From positions 62,001-126,000 of the forward strand of contig OY978099.1 in NCBI GenBank assembly GCA_963854735.1: a stretch of DNA of 64,000 nt. Reading direction: 5' to 3'. The notes beneath the pieces are model-generated. The model saw only the letters and a list, made by a program, of their open reading frames with translations. It did not search any database and had not been told where the DNA came from. The position numbers and the translations under genes are program-made. Origin of the DNA: Marvania coccoides. Taxonomy: Eukaryota > Chlorophyta > Trebouxiophyceae > Chlorellales > Chlorellaceae. Positions 22,509 to 56,444 of this stretch are shown in pieces. The first letter of the stretch is position 1, and each line of letters begins with the position of its first letter.

Positions 22509-22635
22509 TAGGAAGCGAATATGATATCCACTACATCAAGGAGGCTTAATACAATGACGTATGCTTGTGAACCCGGTAGATACCCAAATCTACTTGCTTC
22601 ACCTCCTATGGGATTTGAACCCATGACCTTTCGCT
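22509..22635 (-). tRNA. Circularly permuted tRNA-Arg (anticodon CCU)
   Basis: The tRNA halves are in reversed order on the minus strand. The 3' half (nt 38-73) is complement(22600..22635) and the 5' half (nt 1-37) is complement(22509..22545), with a 54-base spacer between. Joined at 37/38 they give these elements. Acceptor stem: GCCTCCT with AGGAGGT, seven pairs including G1-U72, discriminator G, no encoded CCA. D arm: U8, A14, G15, G18G19 and three stem pairs. Anticodon stem: TTCGC with GCGAA, five of five pairs. Loop: TTCCTAA, with U33, anticodon CCU and A37. Variable loop: AGGTC. T arm: ATGGG-TTCAAAT-CCCAT, five of five pairs. C48 can pair with G15. A TTTTT Pol III terminator sits six bases beyond nt 37 (22499-22503). 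The flank before nt 38 contains TAGGA, complementary to the anticodon-loop TCCTA, as expected at a tRNA splice site. Permuted tRNAs are known from red algae and prasinophyte green algae. Confidence 0.9.
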
Positions 22636-45931: not shown

Positions 45932-48900
45932 GGGGGCGGGAGTCAAGGGGAAACGGCCACCGTGGTCCGCCGCAGCCCCTGGCTTCTCCTGCTCAACGTA
46001 AAAGGCCTCCTCCAAAGCGAGCCGTCCGCTGTTTTCTCACTTTTTCGAGGGGAGCGCCTTGTCATCCTTACAGAAACATGGCTGAGCGACGAAGACACTC
46101 CCCCAACGGTGCCAAACTACCGCGCCTACAATTTCCCACGCCCAACCGCGTCAACAACGGCGGCGGGAGGCGCCCGCGGGGGAGTGGCGGTCTACGTTTC
46201 TCTGGACCTGGAATCATTTGCCACCCCTTGGCCAGAGGAACACTACCACGGTGGCCAATTTTCTTGGCTCCGATTTGATAAAGAGGCCGGACTGCCCCAG
46301 GATTTGTTTATTGCCGCCTGCTATTTTAAACCAAATGACCCTGACATGACTGACGCATGCTTTTGCTTGGAACAACAGGTTGCCCAAGCGAGTGGAATGG
46401 GCAACGTAATCGTCGCTGGTGACTTTAACGCGCACACCGGAGCGTCGGCGCAGCGGCGGAATGAAGATGTTGCGCGGCCGCTAAACGAGATGGGGAAATG
46501 GATTTTAGGCATGGAGGAGGCCATTGCCGAAATCTTCATCGCCAACGGTAGAGTCGCCGGCGACACCTCTGGTAACTTTACTTTCTGGAATTCACGTAAC
46601 CAAAAATCTACCACGGACTATATTTTACTTGACCAAGACCTCCTTTCCAAGGCTAGCATCGAGATAGAGGGACCCCCACCGCACGAGAGGCTGGACCACT
46701 GCCCCCTCAGGCTCAGCCTCCATGATTTCTATCAGGTACGACCTACTCACACAACCGCCCCTACTAACTCAATTCCCTTGCTCCCTCCAAGCAATACATT
46801 TTTGCTCACGAGTGGCCAAGTCAACGACTACGTCACATTTTTTCAAGAACGTCCCCAGCTACTTCTGGCCGCGGCGGCAGCGGCGGATGCAGCGACGGAC
46901 GGTATAGGCGTGGAGGCAGCCCTGGCAGCGATAACAGGAGTCATCGAGGAGGGCCTTGCCGCCGCTGGGGCCACAAAAGTGGTCATTGGAAGGCACCAGC
47001 GCATGGATACGCGCGAAGCGGCTCGGCGGCGTATTGGCAGGGACCCGCAGCTGAAAACTTTGGTGCAGCGGCGGCGGCAAGCTAGGCGGCAGGGGAACGG
47101 AGCCTTGGTGCGAGCTCTGGACCGCCAAATTACCAGCCTTAAACGCGCGCTGGAGAAGAAGGATAAAGCCGTGACACAGCAAGAGGTGCTGGCGGACTGG
47201 CGCAGCAACCCCCGGGCCGTGTGGAAGAAATATAAGAGCGGCGACGCGGCGCCGGCGCAACATTCGGCGGTGGAGCTAACCGAATACTGCGAGCAGCTGC
47301 ACGGCGGAGACCACCACGTGGGCGATGGTGAGGGGGCGATCCCCATCCCCACGCTGCTGGCGGCATTGTGCGGCGACGGCGAAGTCTTGAACCAGGAATT
47401 CACGGAGGAAGAGGTCCATGCAGGCATCATGCGGCTGAAGAATAACAAGGCGGTGGCGGGCAGTTTGGACCTGCCGCATCTCAAGGTGGCTGCAGCTGAG
47501 CTGGCTCCCACGCTGGCTGCGCTGTTTAACGCGGTGGTGCGAACCAAAACCATGCCTTTTGACATGGCGCTGGGTGTGATTACCATGGTTCCCAAGCCGC
47601 GGGCGGGCACCACTATGCTCAACGACCACCGTAGCATCACCGTTTGTAGCATTTTAGATAAACTTTACATGACTTGTTTGACAAGGCGCCTCGGCGCTTG
47701 GGGAGAGGACAATAATTTGCGCACTGACACTCAAACTGGATTTCGGCGTGACCATAGGACTGAGGATAGCATTTTTACCCTGCGTGCATTGATTGAACGC
47801 CACCAGGCTGATGATTCACCACTTTACGTTGCTTTCGTAGATTTCAAAAAGGCATATGATACCGTGCCGCGCGATAAACTCTGGGCTAAACTACAGGCTA
47901 GGGGCGTCACTGGATTCATGCTTGATGCTCTAAAAACCCAATACGCTAACGTCCCTATTTCGGTTAAAACTTTGGAGGGTCTTTCAGCCCCATTCCTGTC
48001 CACTTTGGGGCTGAAGCAGGGAGACCCTGCCAGCTGTGACCTGTTTGGTTTCTACATTGATGATCTGCCCTATGCCATTTTACGCCAAGGAGACTCTGCA
48101 AATCTGCCAACTTTAAGCAACACCACCGTCCCCCCTCTCCTCCATGCAGATGATCTGGCGCTGGTGGCCAAGAGCATCGAGGGGCTACAAGTGCAGCTGG
48201 CGGCACTTTCGGAATACGCAGCGGAGTGGGACCTCACCCTGAGCCTGGCAAAGACAAAGGTGATGTCGCTGGGGGGTGGCAGCGGGCCAAGCAGCGTTCG
48301 GGTCACCTACAGGGGGGTGCAGCTGGAGGAGGTGGCAGAGTTCAAATATTTAGGCGTGATATTTACGACTGGAAGGGATTTTGGTGCTGTGGCAGCGGCG
48401 GCACGGCTGAAAACAGCGAGGGGGGCGCTGGCAGTGATGTGGCGGCGGTGCGCACAGCTGGGGATCACATCGGCACGACTTCTTGGCGAATTCTTTAATG
48501 CGGTGGTGATCCCAACATTGGGATACGGAGTAGAGACCTGGGGGCCAGCCCAGGTGGCAGCTGCGGTGGGCGGTGACGGCAACGACAAGTGCGAGATATT
48601 CTACCGAGCCTTCTTGCGGCGTGTGTTGGGAGTACGCAAAGGCACGGCCAACGTGGTCACACTGGGGGAATTTGGTCGCTTCCCCTTGGCGTGCGCTTGG
48701 GCGAAACGTATCTATAGGTACTGGGAGCGACTCCACACCTTGCCTGACACCAGGGTGACGCTCAAGGCAGCATTTCGGGACAACCTTGCGCTGGCGCTGC
48801 AAAACTCATCTTCGCAGCGCTGTTGGGCGGCGCAAGTGCTGTGCCTGATCGACGCTTTAGGTCTGGAAAGCGGTGTGGCGGAAAGCGGCGTGGTGCCCGC

Positions 48901-49429
48901 GGGGAGCGACGACCTGGACGACCCCAGGATGGCAGAGGCGGCCATGCGCCAACGCTACATGGATTTTTACCGTCAACAATCGGGGACGAAAACTGACTTT
49001 TACAAGGCAACAATACGAGGCGGTGATACCACAATGAGTTCTTATATTTTGCAGCCGTACCTTTCTTCTGTCCTTTCGGTTCCGCGGCGGGTCTCTTTGG
49101 CAAGATTCCGCTGCAGCTCTCATCATCTTGGGGTGGAGACGGGGCGCTACATTGGGCGGCCGCATTCGCATCGGACATGCCGCTTGTGTGCTTCTGGTTC
49201 TTGCGAGGACGAAGAGCACATGGTTTTTCATTGCACATGCCCTTCGTTGGTAGCAATGCGGGCATCCTACCCATCTTTATTCCCTGACGCGCCATCTTCT
49301 TCTTCGTCTTCCCCTTTTTCTCCTTTGAATCTTTTTCAGTTTCTGCAGCAAGCTCCGAAGCAGGTTGCTTCTTTCATTAAAGCCAGCCATGACGCTGGCG
49401 AGTACGAGAAGCTGCGTGGTTGGATATAA
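45932..49429 (+). CDS. LINE ORF2: endonuclease-reverse transcriptase
   Basis: Open from the codon after the ORF1 stop to TAA 49427-49429 (1165 codons). The first in-frame ATG comes only about 140 codons in, inside the endonuclease domain. Endonuclease motifs are ILTETWLSD, VIVAGDFNAHTG and LDHCPLRLS. Reverse transcriptase motifs are FVDFKKAYDTVPRDKLW, LKQGDPASCDLFGFYIDDL, LLHADDLALVAKS (the H-A-D-D box) and LAKTKVMSLG. A C-x2-C...H-x4-C knuckle (CRLCASG to HMVFHC) lies near the end, then a Ser-rich stretch. The enzyme nicks target DNA and primes reverse transcription there. Because no usable ATG exists at the start, translation must involve UAG readthrough, reinitiation at a non-AUG codon, or a mutated fused ORF. 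Confidence 0.9.
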   Translation, partial: GGGSQGETATVVRRSPWLLLLNVKGLLQSEPSAVFSLFRGERLVILTETWLSDEDTPPTVPNYRAYNFPRPTASTTAAGGARGGVAVYVSLDLESFATPWPEEHYHGGQFSWLRFDKEAGLPQDLFIAACYFKPNDPDMTDACFCLEQQVAQASGMGNVIVAGDFNAHTGASAQRRNEDVARPLNEMGKWILGMEEAIAEIFIANGRVAGDTSGNFTFWNSRNQKSTTDYILLDQDLLSKASIEIEGPPPHERLDHCPLRLSLHDFYQVRPTHTTAPTNSIPLLPPSNTFLLTSGQVNDYVTFFQERPQLLLAAAAAADAATDGIGVEAALAAITGVIEEGLAAAGATKVVIGRHQRMDTREAARRRIGRDPQLKTLVQRRRQARRQGNGALVRALDRQITSLKRALEKKDKAVTQQEVLADWRSNPRAVWKKYKSGDAAPAQHSAVELTEYCEQLHGGDHHVGDGEGAIPIPTLLAALCGDGEVLNQEFTEEEVHAGIMRLKNNKAVAGSLDLPHLKVAAAELAPTLAALFNAVVRTKTMPFDMALGVITMVPKPRAGTTMLNDHRSITVCSILDKLYMTCLTRRLGAWGEDNNLRTDTQTGFRRDHRTEDSIFTLRALIERHQADDSPLYVAFVDFKKAYDTVPRDKLWAKLQARGVTGFMLDALKTQYANVPISVKTLEGLSAPFLSTLGLKQGDPASCDLFGFYIDDLPYAILRQGDSANLPTLSNTTVPPLLHADDLALVAKSIEGLQVQLAALSEYAAEWDLTLSLAKTKVMSLGGGSGPSSVRVTYRGVQLEEVAEFKYLGVIFTTGRDFGAVAAAARLKTARGALAVMWRRCAQLGITSARLLGEFFNAVVIPTLGYGVETWGPAQVAAAVGGDGNDKCEIFYRAFLRRVLGVRKGTANVVTLGEFGRFPLACAWAKRIYRYWERLHTLPDTRVTLKAAFRDNLALALQNSSSQRCWAAQVLCLIDALGLESGVAESGVVPAGSDDLDDPRMAEAAMRQRYMDFYRQQSGTKTDFYKATIRGGDTTMSSYILQPYLSSVLSVPRRVSLARFRCSSHHLGVETGRYIGRPHSHRTCRLCASGSCEDEEHMVFHCTCPSLVAMRASYPSLFPDAPSSSSSSPFSPLNLFQFLQQAPKQVASFIKASHDAGEYEKLRGWI

Positions 49430-54218: not shown

Positions 54219-54825
54219 GGTTTGAAGATGAACTATGATAGGATGAATTAACCTTCCGTCTTGATTAGACGTGTTTGCAACCATGGTTGAATACAAAGAC
54301 GGGGGGAGAAAAAAAAATGAAATGAAAAGCTTTTAGCATGGCCAAACCGAGGTTTCAAGGTTTACAAATGGCTGTCAAGGGCCTTTGACAACTTAAATAA
54401 AAAAACAAAACAAAAAAAGGGCGCCAAACGGATTGTGTTGACAAATCATGCTGACTTCATGATTAGCGGATTTTCGTTTCCCCTTTGGTCAGCCCCATTG
54501 GTCGTTGGGTTCTTTTAGACGAGTGTATCTCTCTCTCTCTCTCAAAAACATGTTTTTACCCTACCGCCTTCACTTCCAGATCAAAGTAATAACTGTGCAA
54601 ATCGAATATTCGTCGTGGGACACGTCCTCGGTCACCTCGCGGTAGGCTACCATTGGTCTCAGCCAACCGATATAAGCTCACCAACTGCTTTTAACTGCCG
54701 TCCTGGGAATTCCATCCTGTTTTGCCAACCCCACTACGTCTAGGGACCAGGGATCGCAAGTTTCTTCAACTCATCCCTACGAAGCTCGGGTGCCAATGCG
54801 ACCATATATAACTTTAATTTTTTGA
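54219..54825. other. AT-rich intergenic DNA
   Basis: About 600 bases with a short CT run (54530-54542) and no supported gene or RNA. A D-arm-like string near 54640-54670 on the minus strand was checked and does not fold as a tRNA. Confidence 0.3.
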
Positions 54826-55235
54826 CAAGACATCATCATCTCAAACATCTGCTGCCCGAAAATGGCAAAATCGGTGTACGCCGTCGCTGCCAGACCTGCT
54901 TTTTATGCTGGAAACGGATGAACTGGCGTCGGAATGCCGGATAAGGGGAGAATACAAATTTTATATTTTCGACGGCATCATCAAACATCTGCTGCCCAAA
55001 AATGGCGAAATCGGTGTACGCCGTCGCTGCCAGACCTGCTTTTTATGCTGGAAACGGATGAACTGGCGTCGGAATGCCGGAAAAGGGGAGAATAAATATT
55101 TTATATTTTCGACAAGACAACATCATCAAACATCTGCTGCCCGGAAATGGCAAAATCGGTGTACGCCGTCGCTGCCAGACCTGCTTTTTATGCTGGAAAC
55201 GGATGAAATGGCGTCGGAATGCCGGAATGCGCTTG
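54826..55235 (+). repeat. Three tandem copies of a ~140-145 bp unit
   Basis: Units start at about 54843, 54983 and 55128 with AAACATCTGCTGCCC, and each continues with ATCGGTGTACGCCGTCGC, CAGACCTGCTTTTTATGC and GGCGTCGGAATGCCGG. Copies differ by a few substitutions and by a small insertion in the third. Frames cross the copies but change phase between them, so a coding role is doubtful. Confidence 0.85.
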
Positions 55236-55507
55236 AAAACCGCGAGATTGCGACGGTCATCCGAAAAAAGAAAGTAGGGTGGATTTTATTTCATGCTTTT
55301 GGGGGCGAATACGGGGCCAAACCGAGTCAAATTTTCACCAGGAAGTGCGCTTTGGCGAGATCTATGCCCACAGGGTGCCAGGCGGTGGCAGCGACGGTCA
55401 AAACCCTTTGAAATTGGCAAAAAACGCGAAATTTGTTTTTTCGAGCTGAGACGCCGCCAATCGCTTGGAAATGGTGTGGAAATGTGTGTGGGGGAGCAAA
55501 AAGCTAC

Positions 55508-55659
55508 TTCTAATCATTCCCCTTAACCGCTCGGGCAAGGCAACCGGTTAAATTATAATCGTAATGGGAACCAACGGCAAGATGTGCCTCTCGGCACGTT
55601 TCTGACGTTAATTCACGTTGCCTGCAGGATTCGAACTTGCGCGGGTCTCCCCAAATGAT
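55508..55659 (-). tRNA. Circularly permuted tRNA-Ser (anticodon AGA)
   Basis: On the minus strand the 3' half (nt 38-73) is complement(55616..55659) and the 5' half (nt 1-37) is complement(55508..55544); a 71-base spacer separates them. Joined at 37/38 they give these elements. Acceptor stem: GTTGCCT with AGGCAAC, seven of seven Watson-Crick pairs, discriminator G, no CCA. D arm: TG then CCCGAGCGGTTAAGGG, class II type, with three pairs, A14 and G18G19. Anticodon stem: AATGA with TCATT, five of five pairs. Loop: TTAGAAA, with U33, anticodon AGA and A37. Long variable arm: TGGGGAGACCCGC, with a GGG/CCC stem as in tRNA-Ser. T arm: GCAAG-TTCGAAT-CCTGC, with one A-C mismatch. A TTTTT run lies six bases past nt 37 (55498-55502). 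The long arm and anticodon agree on serine independently. Confidence 0.9.
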
Positions 55660-56444
55660 ATCAAGGCGTACCGAAGCTGTGCCACGGATCTTCATGGCCT
55701 GGGGAATTATACAACAAAACAGTATCGTCTGCAAGCCCGCTTCCTGCCCCAAATCCAGCTCTCCTTCCAGGCTTCCCCACCCCCTTGACATTCTCCACGC
55801 CAAGCGCTACCCCTTACATCTGTTAGAAAATTCTTCCATGCAGCGCGCTGACGAGTCGCGACGGCGGTCGGGGGAACCCTTAAACGGCCGAATTGCACTC
55901 TCCAGCAATTCGCTCGCTGCATGCACGCGCTTGCTCAGCTGCGAAAAATTAGTATATATTATGTCTTATGGCCGAAAAAGCTTGCTGTGCAACCCCCATT
56001 TTAATGGCAGCCTCCATGCAGTTGGAGTCCAAAATAAGTCCAAGAATTGTAAAATATTTGGACGAGGGAAACCTTTGAGTAGGAACTGAGCACCTACTAT
56101 AGGCGTCCTTATATAGGCTAAGCCACAATCTACAGGAGAAGTGGAATCGGTCTCAGATTGTGGTACACTCATCAAGTGACTGGACGATGGGAAACCTTTG
56201 AGTAGAAACGTGCAACTACCATAGGGCGTCCTCCCCCTGGTGTCTCTTTAATTTTTATTTTTGTTGAAAAATACGATTGAGACTTAATATCCTCGGTGCT
56301 TGGTGGGCATATGAAAAAAGAATTGGCAGCTTTTTTGGACAAGCTGCTGGCTCATGCACAATTGGGGCGCGTGATTCATTTATTTTGTATGTGTGAGCTG
56401 CCAACTTTTTAAATATACCTCTCTGCATGGACCATTATTTTTAG
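55660..56444. other. Intergenic; contains repeat shared with 41.5 kb
   Basis: No supported gene. Bases 56219-56288 resemble 41500-41562. Confidence 0.35.

Follow-up and report, generated by a model that had tools for sequence, protein, structure and literature searches.

The minus strand of the 64-kb stretch of DNA analyzed here (the window, C3:62001-126000) carries what we predict, with a probability of about 0.9, to be a functional, circularly permuted nuclear tRNA-Ser(AGA) gene of type II, with its junction at 37/38. Read directly from the sequence in the minus-strand direction, the locus consists of the tRNA 3′ half (55659-55616, position 38 to discriminator 73), a 71-nt spacer running from the acceptor 3′ strand to the acceptor 5′ strand (55615-55545) and the 5′ half (55544-55508, positions 1-37). 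This half order, the shared strand and the 71-nt spacer are those that define a type II permuted gene; in the known permuted tRNA genes, spacers of 1-74 bp separate the 3′ half from the 5′ half, according to the review PMC3978253.

Structure and detection of the tRNA-Ser(AGA) gene

The 3′ half supplies the 3′ strand of the anticodon stem, a 13-nt variable arm, the T arm and the 3′ strand of the acceptor stem, and the 5′ half supplies the 5′ strand of the acceptor stem, the D arm, the 5′ strand of the anticodon stem and TTAGAA. Both halves were delimited from the sequence, by ARAGORN on the joined halves and by the covariance model R2 described below, which returned 55659-55508, so that the original prediction was exact to the base in its coordinates, half order and 71-base spacer. 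Within the spacer lies a hairpin, GTGCC-GAGA-GGCAC. When joined, the halves form a cloverleaf, called as tRNA-Ser(aga) by ARAGORN, in agreement with the serine identity and AGA anticodon proposed for it, and both the sequence and the ARAGORN fold contain the predicted seven-pair acceptor stem, anticodon loop TTAGAAA and GGG/CCC variable arm. Direct reading shows the eukaryotic consensus bases U8, R15, G18G19, U33 and TTC. The T stem has the single A-C mismatch already pointed out, A52-C62, which also changes the first base of the B box. The CCA end is not encoded, as TGA comes after G73, which is the eukaryotic pattern.

Conventional searches returned nothing for this locus. Ordinary ARAGORN on the whole window gave 0 tRNA genes, Rfam at the gathering threshold gave 0 tRNA matches in the window, and cmscan of each Ser(AGA) half separately gave 0 matches at E up to 1. 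We therefore used covariance models for permuted tRNAs, trained on the genome's own tRNAs after artificial permutation. The model R1 (36 rows, Ser(AGA) and Ser(GCT) among them in shortened form) misaligned the gene to a wrong 3′ half at 11.5 bits (E 0.31) despite the shortened copy in its training; the length of the variable arm and spacer is the presumed cause. For this reason a second model, R2, was built with Ser(AGA) left out; its 22 rows provide space for a long variable arm and a spacer, and include Ser(GCT) and Ser(CGA) but not Ser(AGA) or Arg(CCT). Trained on these relatives but without Ser(AGA) itself, R2 matched exactly 55659-55508 at 51.8 bits (E 2.7e-15), a strong score in the covariance scoring that the original prediction had proposed as a check. 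R1 also matched head-to-tail pairs of ordinary organelle tRNAs at up to 37.3 bits, and next to a contiguous nuclear tRNA gene it reached up to 28.9 bits, so R1 scores below about 40 bits were not taken as evidence. R2 gave 7-22 bits on contiguous genes, and such scores were not counted.

The gene was also recovered by running ARAGORN on circularized 260-nt segments of the window. Only two wrap-around genes were found, Ser(AGA) and Arg(cct). Both recurred in three overlapping segments, with the break called at 38; the Ser(AGA) junction is thus placed at 37/38 by this break and by the R2 alignment, which ends at 37 and 38. Among 600 dinucleotide-shuffled windows, 75 yielded a wrap-around match of any kind and 8 a match with a 37/38 junction, and none (0/600) had a wrap-around gene with this junction repeated in at least two overlapping segments. 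An earlier run of shuffles had given a wrap-around match of any kind in 19/200 windows. These shuffles and the R2 score mark the gene as more than a chance structure. Elsewhere, wrap-around calls of Glu (L064), Ala (L066), Ile (L031) and Gly (L034) were seen once or with other breaks and were set aside as misreadings, and those of ordinary Val, Gln, Glu, Lys and Asp genes were dropped, as the segments had been cut near these genes.

When the joined sequence was used as a query against the whole genome (E up to 10), there were four matches, namely the two halves themselves, Ser(CGA) (75% identity over 74 of 81 nt) and the 3′ half of a permuted Ser(GCT) gene (92% identity over 39 nt to the Ser(AGA) 3′ half). 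No contiguous tRNA-Ser(AGA) gene was found in this search, and one as close as Ser(CGA) should have shown up, because the 75%-identical Ser(CGA) was detected. The question raised beforehand, whether the genome has another, normal tRNA-Ser(AGA) gene, is answered in the negative at that sensitivity. In three ORFs of the window, UCU makes up 19/1875 and UCC 29/1875 codons (together 48/1875). A34 of the Ser(AGA) tRNA would be converted to inosine, so that it would read UCU, UCC and UCA.

Sister genes, other tRNA genes and a shared downstream flank

At least four further tRNA genes in the genome are apparently permuted: Arg(CCT), Ser(GCT), Leu(TAA) and Val(CAC). The tRNA-Arg(CCT) gene lies on the minus strand of the same window, with its 3′ half at 22600-22635 (R1, circular ARAGORN and R2), a 54-nt spacer at 22546-22599 (R1 and sequence) and its 5′ half (1-37) at 22509-22545 (R1, circular ARAGORN and sequence), followed at +6 by TTTTT (22503-22499). 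Absent from both trainings, it scored 52.3 bits (E 1.7e-15) with R1 and 45.1 bits (E 4.6e-13) with R2. The permuted Ser(GCT) gene, identified by ARAGORN on the joined halves, has a 6-nt spacer and lies on C3 near 1990473-1990559. Leu(TAA), with a 16-nt spacer, is found on the minus strand at C10:941003-941099 by circular ARAGORN, reading and R2; it was in neither training and, with filters off, scored 39.9 bits (E 2.2e-12) with R2 and 30.5 bits with R1. ARAGORN called its break one base later, at 39, so its junction is 37/38 or 38/39. A 106-nt Val(gac) call by ARAGORN at the same locus (L066) was over-long and was taken as spurious. The apparent permuted Val(CAC) gene, recognized by reading on the minus strand of C3 near 336155-336329, has a 13-nt spacer and an 89-nt insert in the D arm, and forms a complete cloverleaf once the insert is removed; the ends of the insert are ambiguous because CAGTG is repeated at both. 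With filters off it scored 16.9 bits with R2 and 24.1 bits with R1, with the acceptor and T arms aligned but not the interrupted D arm, and circular ARAGORN called Glu(ctc) once at this place. With default filters R2 reported neither Leu(TAA) nor Val(CAC) at their loci.

These genes were found in a genome of 22.46 Mb and 15 contigs, of which contigs 1-13 were taken as nuclear. From the look of ORFs in the stretches sampled, contig 14 (49 kb) was counted as mitochondrial and contig 15 (100 kb) as plastid. One protein of contig 15 is the photosystem II protein CP47; its best solved relatives are 9hd7 and 8bd3, the second of these a Chlorella photosystem, and on this ground the alga is probably a trebouxiophyte. 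Across the whole genome, the Rfam tRNA model gave 61 matches at E 0.001, 9 of them nuclear: Val(TAC), Gln(CTG), Met(CAT), Gly(TCC), Glu(TTC) and Asp(GTC) without an intron, and Cys(GCA), Lys(CTT) and Thr(AGT) with one. Two more contiguous, intron-containing genes, Ser(CGA) and Pro(TGG), were missed by the Rfam model, and its list is therefore not exhaustive. The Ser(CGA) anticodon is a reading by eye, and intron-allowing ARAGORN gave this gene another name. Altogether, 16 nuclear tRNA genes were seen and 5 of them read as permuted, a sample that is incomplete and unevenly drawn, so that 5/16 is no estimate of the genome-wide permuted share. Plant-like tRNA-Ile and tRNA-Leu probes had no match, which by itself is uninformative. 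A Lys(CTT) probe revealed no permuted Lys gene; its matches were the intron-containing gene and a truncated copy (C8:773607-773642 and upstream), which holds the intron and the 3′ half and has lost most of the 5′ half. This copy is inverted and is accompanied by 893 nt of the Lys(CTT) downstream flank at 99.9% identity.

Several tRNA genes share a downstream flank of about 360 nt, which behind Ser(AGA) occupies window positions 55120-55480, about 30 to 390 nt past the end of the transcription unit. It is common, in whole or in part, to seven tRNA genes, the permuted Ser(AGA), Leu(TAA) and Val(CAC) and the contiguous Lys(CTT), Pro(TGG), Asp(GTC) and Glu(TTC), as well as to the truncated Lys copy. 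Pairwise, stretches of the copies are 66-90% identical, in the same orientation and at a distance from the gene end that is equal within about 30 nt; the Leu(TAA) flank is without some 120 nt in the middle. Behind the permuted genes the flank comes after the 5′ half, that is, after the transcript end. Genome searches with three flank copies retrieved these eight loci and, next to Ser(AGA), tandem copies, but no other sequence; the counts are lower bounds. Upstream flanks (for six genes, about 530-630 nt) matched one another at varying distances only, at E 1e-5. The shared flank may be either a relic of an element that inserts behind tRNA genes or a conserved gene part. In the event that most of the tRNA genes so far unseen prove to be permuted or disrupted by ectopic introns, it would represent an unrecognized tRNA-gene-targeted or tRNA-gene-associated element. 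A tandem array (window 54819-55227, period 140, 2.8 copies) overlaps the shared flank of Ser(AGA). Some 6 kb from the tRNA gene, on the plus strand, the window also has an ORF of 1165 aa (45932-49429), probably a LINE-like retroelement, in which an endonuclease/exonuclease/phosphatase domain is combined with a reverse transcriptase domain.

Predicted expression and processing, and alternative explanations

A TTTTT run resembling an RNA polymerase III terminator (55502-55498, minus strand) starts at +6 after position 37, and in the five permuted genes the run of at least four T starts at +6, +6, +6, +9 and +7, against a probability of 0.044 that a window position picked at random has TTTT within 12 nt. 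By sequence reading, no run of four T occurs in the spacer of Ser(AGA) or in those of its four sister genes. This arrangement fits one polymerase III transcript reaching from leader to trailer. Upstream, a sequence scan found the TATA-like TATAATTC (55704-55711, minus strand), which starts 52 nt upstream of position 38; the same scan found a TATA-like sequence within 120 nt of 4/5 permuted vs 4/11 contiguous genes.

In the bulge-helix-bulge (BHB) register of tRNA introns, position 32 pairs with −3, 33 with −4, and so on. The Ser(AGA) leader and loop pair at 32, 34 and 35, three of the four first register positions, and again at +1 and +2. Among the sister genes, Arg and Leu have five consecutive pairs, and Ser(GCT) and Val have 1/4. 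Pooled over the five genes, 11/20 and 16/30 positions pair vs means of 7.9 and 11.25 under the null (p 0.10 and 0.05). Two of the five genes thus show clear BHB pairing, Ser(AGA) shows partial pairing, and in the other two the pairing is weak. Freely folded, the Ser(AGA) pre-tRNA gave no cloverleaf with a 15-, 25- or 35-nt leader. With a 15-nt leader, Arg(CCT) formed the permuted cloverleaf with a leader-loop helix and Ser(GCT) formed most arms, in neither case at 25 or 35 nt. The original prediction had pointed to BHB-like folding around the cut sites as a check; the register pairing speaks for such folding in part, but the free folding does not. Short repeats of the 5′ halves in the leaders (TGCTA in Ser(GCT), TGAT in Ser(AGA) and CACTTAA in Leu(TAA), whose leader repeats this part of its own 5′ half) were considered as remnants of a duplicated 5′ half and set aside, being short and not seen in Arg and Val.

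Two genes with a tRNA intron endonuclease domain are present in the genome, one with Sen2 (E 1.3e-18) and the other with Sen34 (E 1.1e-13) as its best solved relative. By extension of the pathway of Cyanidioschyzon merolae and prasinophytes, RNA polymerase III would produce a transcript of leader, 3′ half, spacer, 5′ half and trailer. Folding of its halves would bring leader and trailer together at the anticodon loop; a cut at 37/38 by the tRNA-splicing endonuclease and closure of the circle by a ligase would follow, after which RNase P and tRNase Z would remove the spacer at the acceptor stem and CCA would be added. Cutting and circle closure, spacer removal by RNase P and tRNase Z, and CCA addition are described in work reviewed in PMC3978253.

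Could the locus instead be the decayed remains of a permuted or duplicated tRNA-Ser gene, now without function, with another gene supplying the tRNA? The A52-C62 mismatch in the T stem is compatible with decay, and the truncated Lys gene at C8:773607 shows that broken tRNA copies exist in this genome. However, the whole-genome search found no intact Ser(AGA) gene that could supply the tRNA, the remainder of the cloverleaf is intact and the T-run at +6 has been retained, so we regard a relic as unlikely. We consider it less likely still that the halves are a split tRNA, made from two transcription units with their own promoters and joined in trans. Such an arrangement might draw on the length of the spacer and on the AT-rich stretch ATTATAATTTAA directly before the 5′ half, but the spacer has no run of four T, the halves lie on one strand only 71 nt apart, and the 6-, 13- and 16-nt spacers of sister genes leave scant room for a second promoter.

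An assembly error or a chance resemblance is very improbable. The analysis is based on one assembly, yet five apparent genes of the same design occur in distinct places with a T-run after each, and neither the E value obtained from R2 in the absence of Ser(AGA) from its training nor the outcome of the 600 shuffles is expected of a chance match. A functional permuted gene transcribed as one unit therefore remains our preferred reading of the locus.

Two permuted genes and no contiguous tRNA gene lie within the one 64-kb window. It is conceivable, though we would not put it at even odds, that permutation and other disruption are the usual form of nuclear tRNA genes in this alga. Since the tRNA finders used here miss these genes on ordinary settings, algal genomes of this kind seem short of tRNAs, and this one deserves a full tRNA inventory. 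A permuted set in one chromosome-scale genome, one member of which has an apparent D-arm intron, would allow both the origin of permutation and the tolerance of the splicing endonuclease to be tested in a probable trebouxiophyte.

Comparison with known permuted tRNA genes

Permuted tRNA genes are rare but not new, the present genome being a further one that has them, and Ser(AGA) with a 37/38 junction is already known. A close counterpart tabulated in PMC3978253 is a permuted type II Ser(AGA) gene of Micromonas pusilla (Maruyama et al. 2010), with the same tRNA, the same 37/38 junction, no extra intron and a similarly long spacer (64 bp vs 71 nt here). M. pusilla is a prasinophyte, whereas the present alga is probably a trebouxiophyte, and the likeness is one of table entries. 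The same table lists a permuted type II Ser(AGA) in the nucleomorph of Bigelowiella natans, along with a permuted Ser(CGA); the tRNA and junction are those found here, but the B. natans spacer is 5 bp and the gene resides in a nucleomorph rather than a nucleus. Amorphochlora amoebiformis, too, has a permuted tRNA-Ser(AGA), according to PMC4494063. Permuted Ser(GCT) in M. pusilla and permuted Leu(TAA) in three algae are further table entries (PMC3978253). According to the same source, permutation tends to affect class II tRNAs, which runs counter to the earlier suggestion that permuted tRNAs of this class are noticed less often.

Among the matches listed in literature searches for permuted tRNA genes in trebouxiophytes, only Auxenochlorella appeared. 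Auxenochlorella UTEX 250-A is a trebouxiophyte, as the present alga probably is, and has a comparable genome (about 22 Mb in each haplotype); tRNAscan-SE gave an incomplete set for it, and permuted genes were identified afterwards, as reported in PMC12636532 and PMC12633428. Its telomere repeat is given as TTAGGG in the latter, as against the TTTAGGG repeats at the starts of contigs C1-C3 here (the three starts examined, of 15 contigs), so that the two genomes are not the same.

According to PMC3978253, tRNA genes with atypical introns are almost absent from green algae, and the sole permuted green-algal gene with an intron in its table is Ser(TGA) of O. lucimarinus (27/28). Val(CAC), as read here, would be another, with its intron in the D arm. 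The red alga Cyanidioschyzon merolae (Soma et al. 2007), as portrayed in PMC3978253, differs from the present alga in having junctions at several positions and no Ser among its 11 permuted genes. Nevertheless, it has the same half order, an upstream TATA-like sequence and a downstream T-run, and it combines permutation with ectopic introns, to which Val(CAC) may be compared. If disruption is indeed the usual form of these tRNA genes, and if most isoacceptors so far unseen turn out to be permuted or to contain ectopic introns, this alga would be a green-algal counterpart of Cyanidioschyzon.
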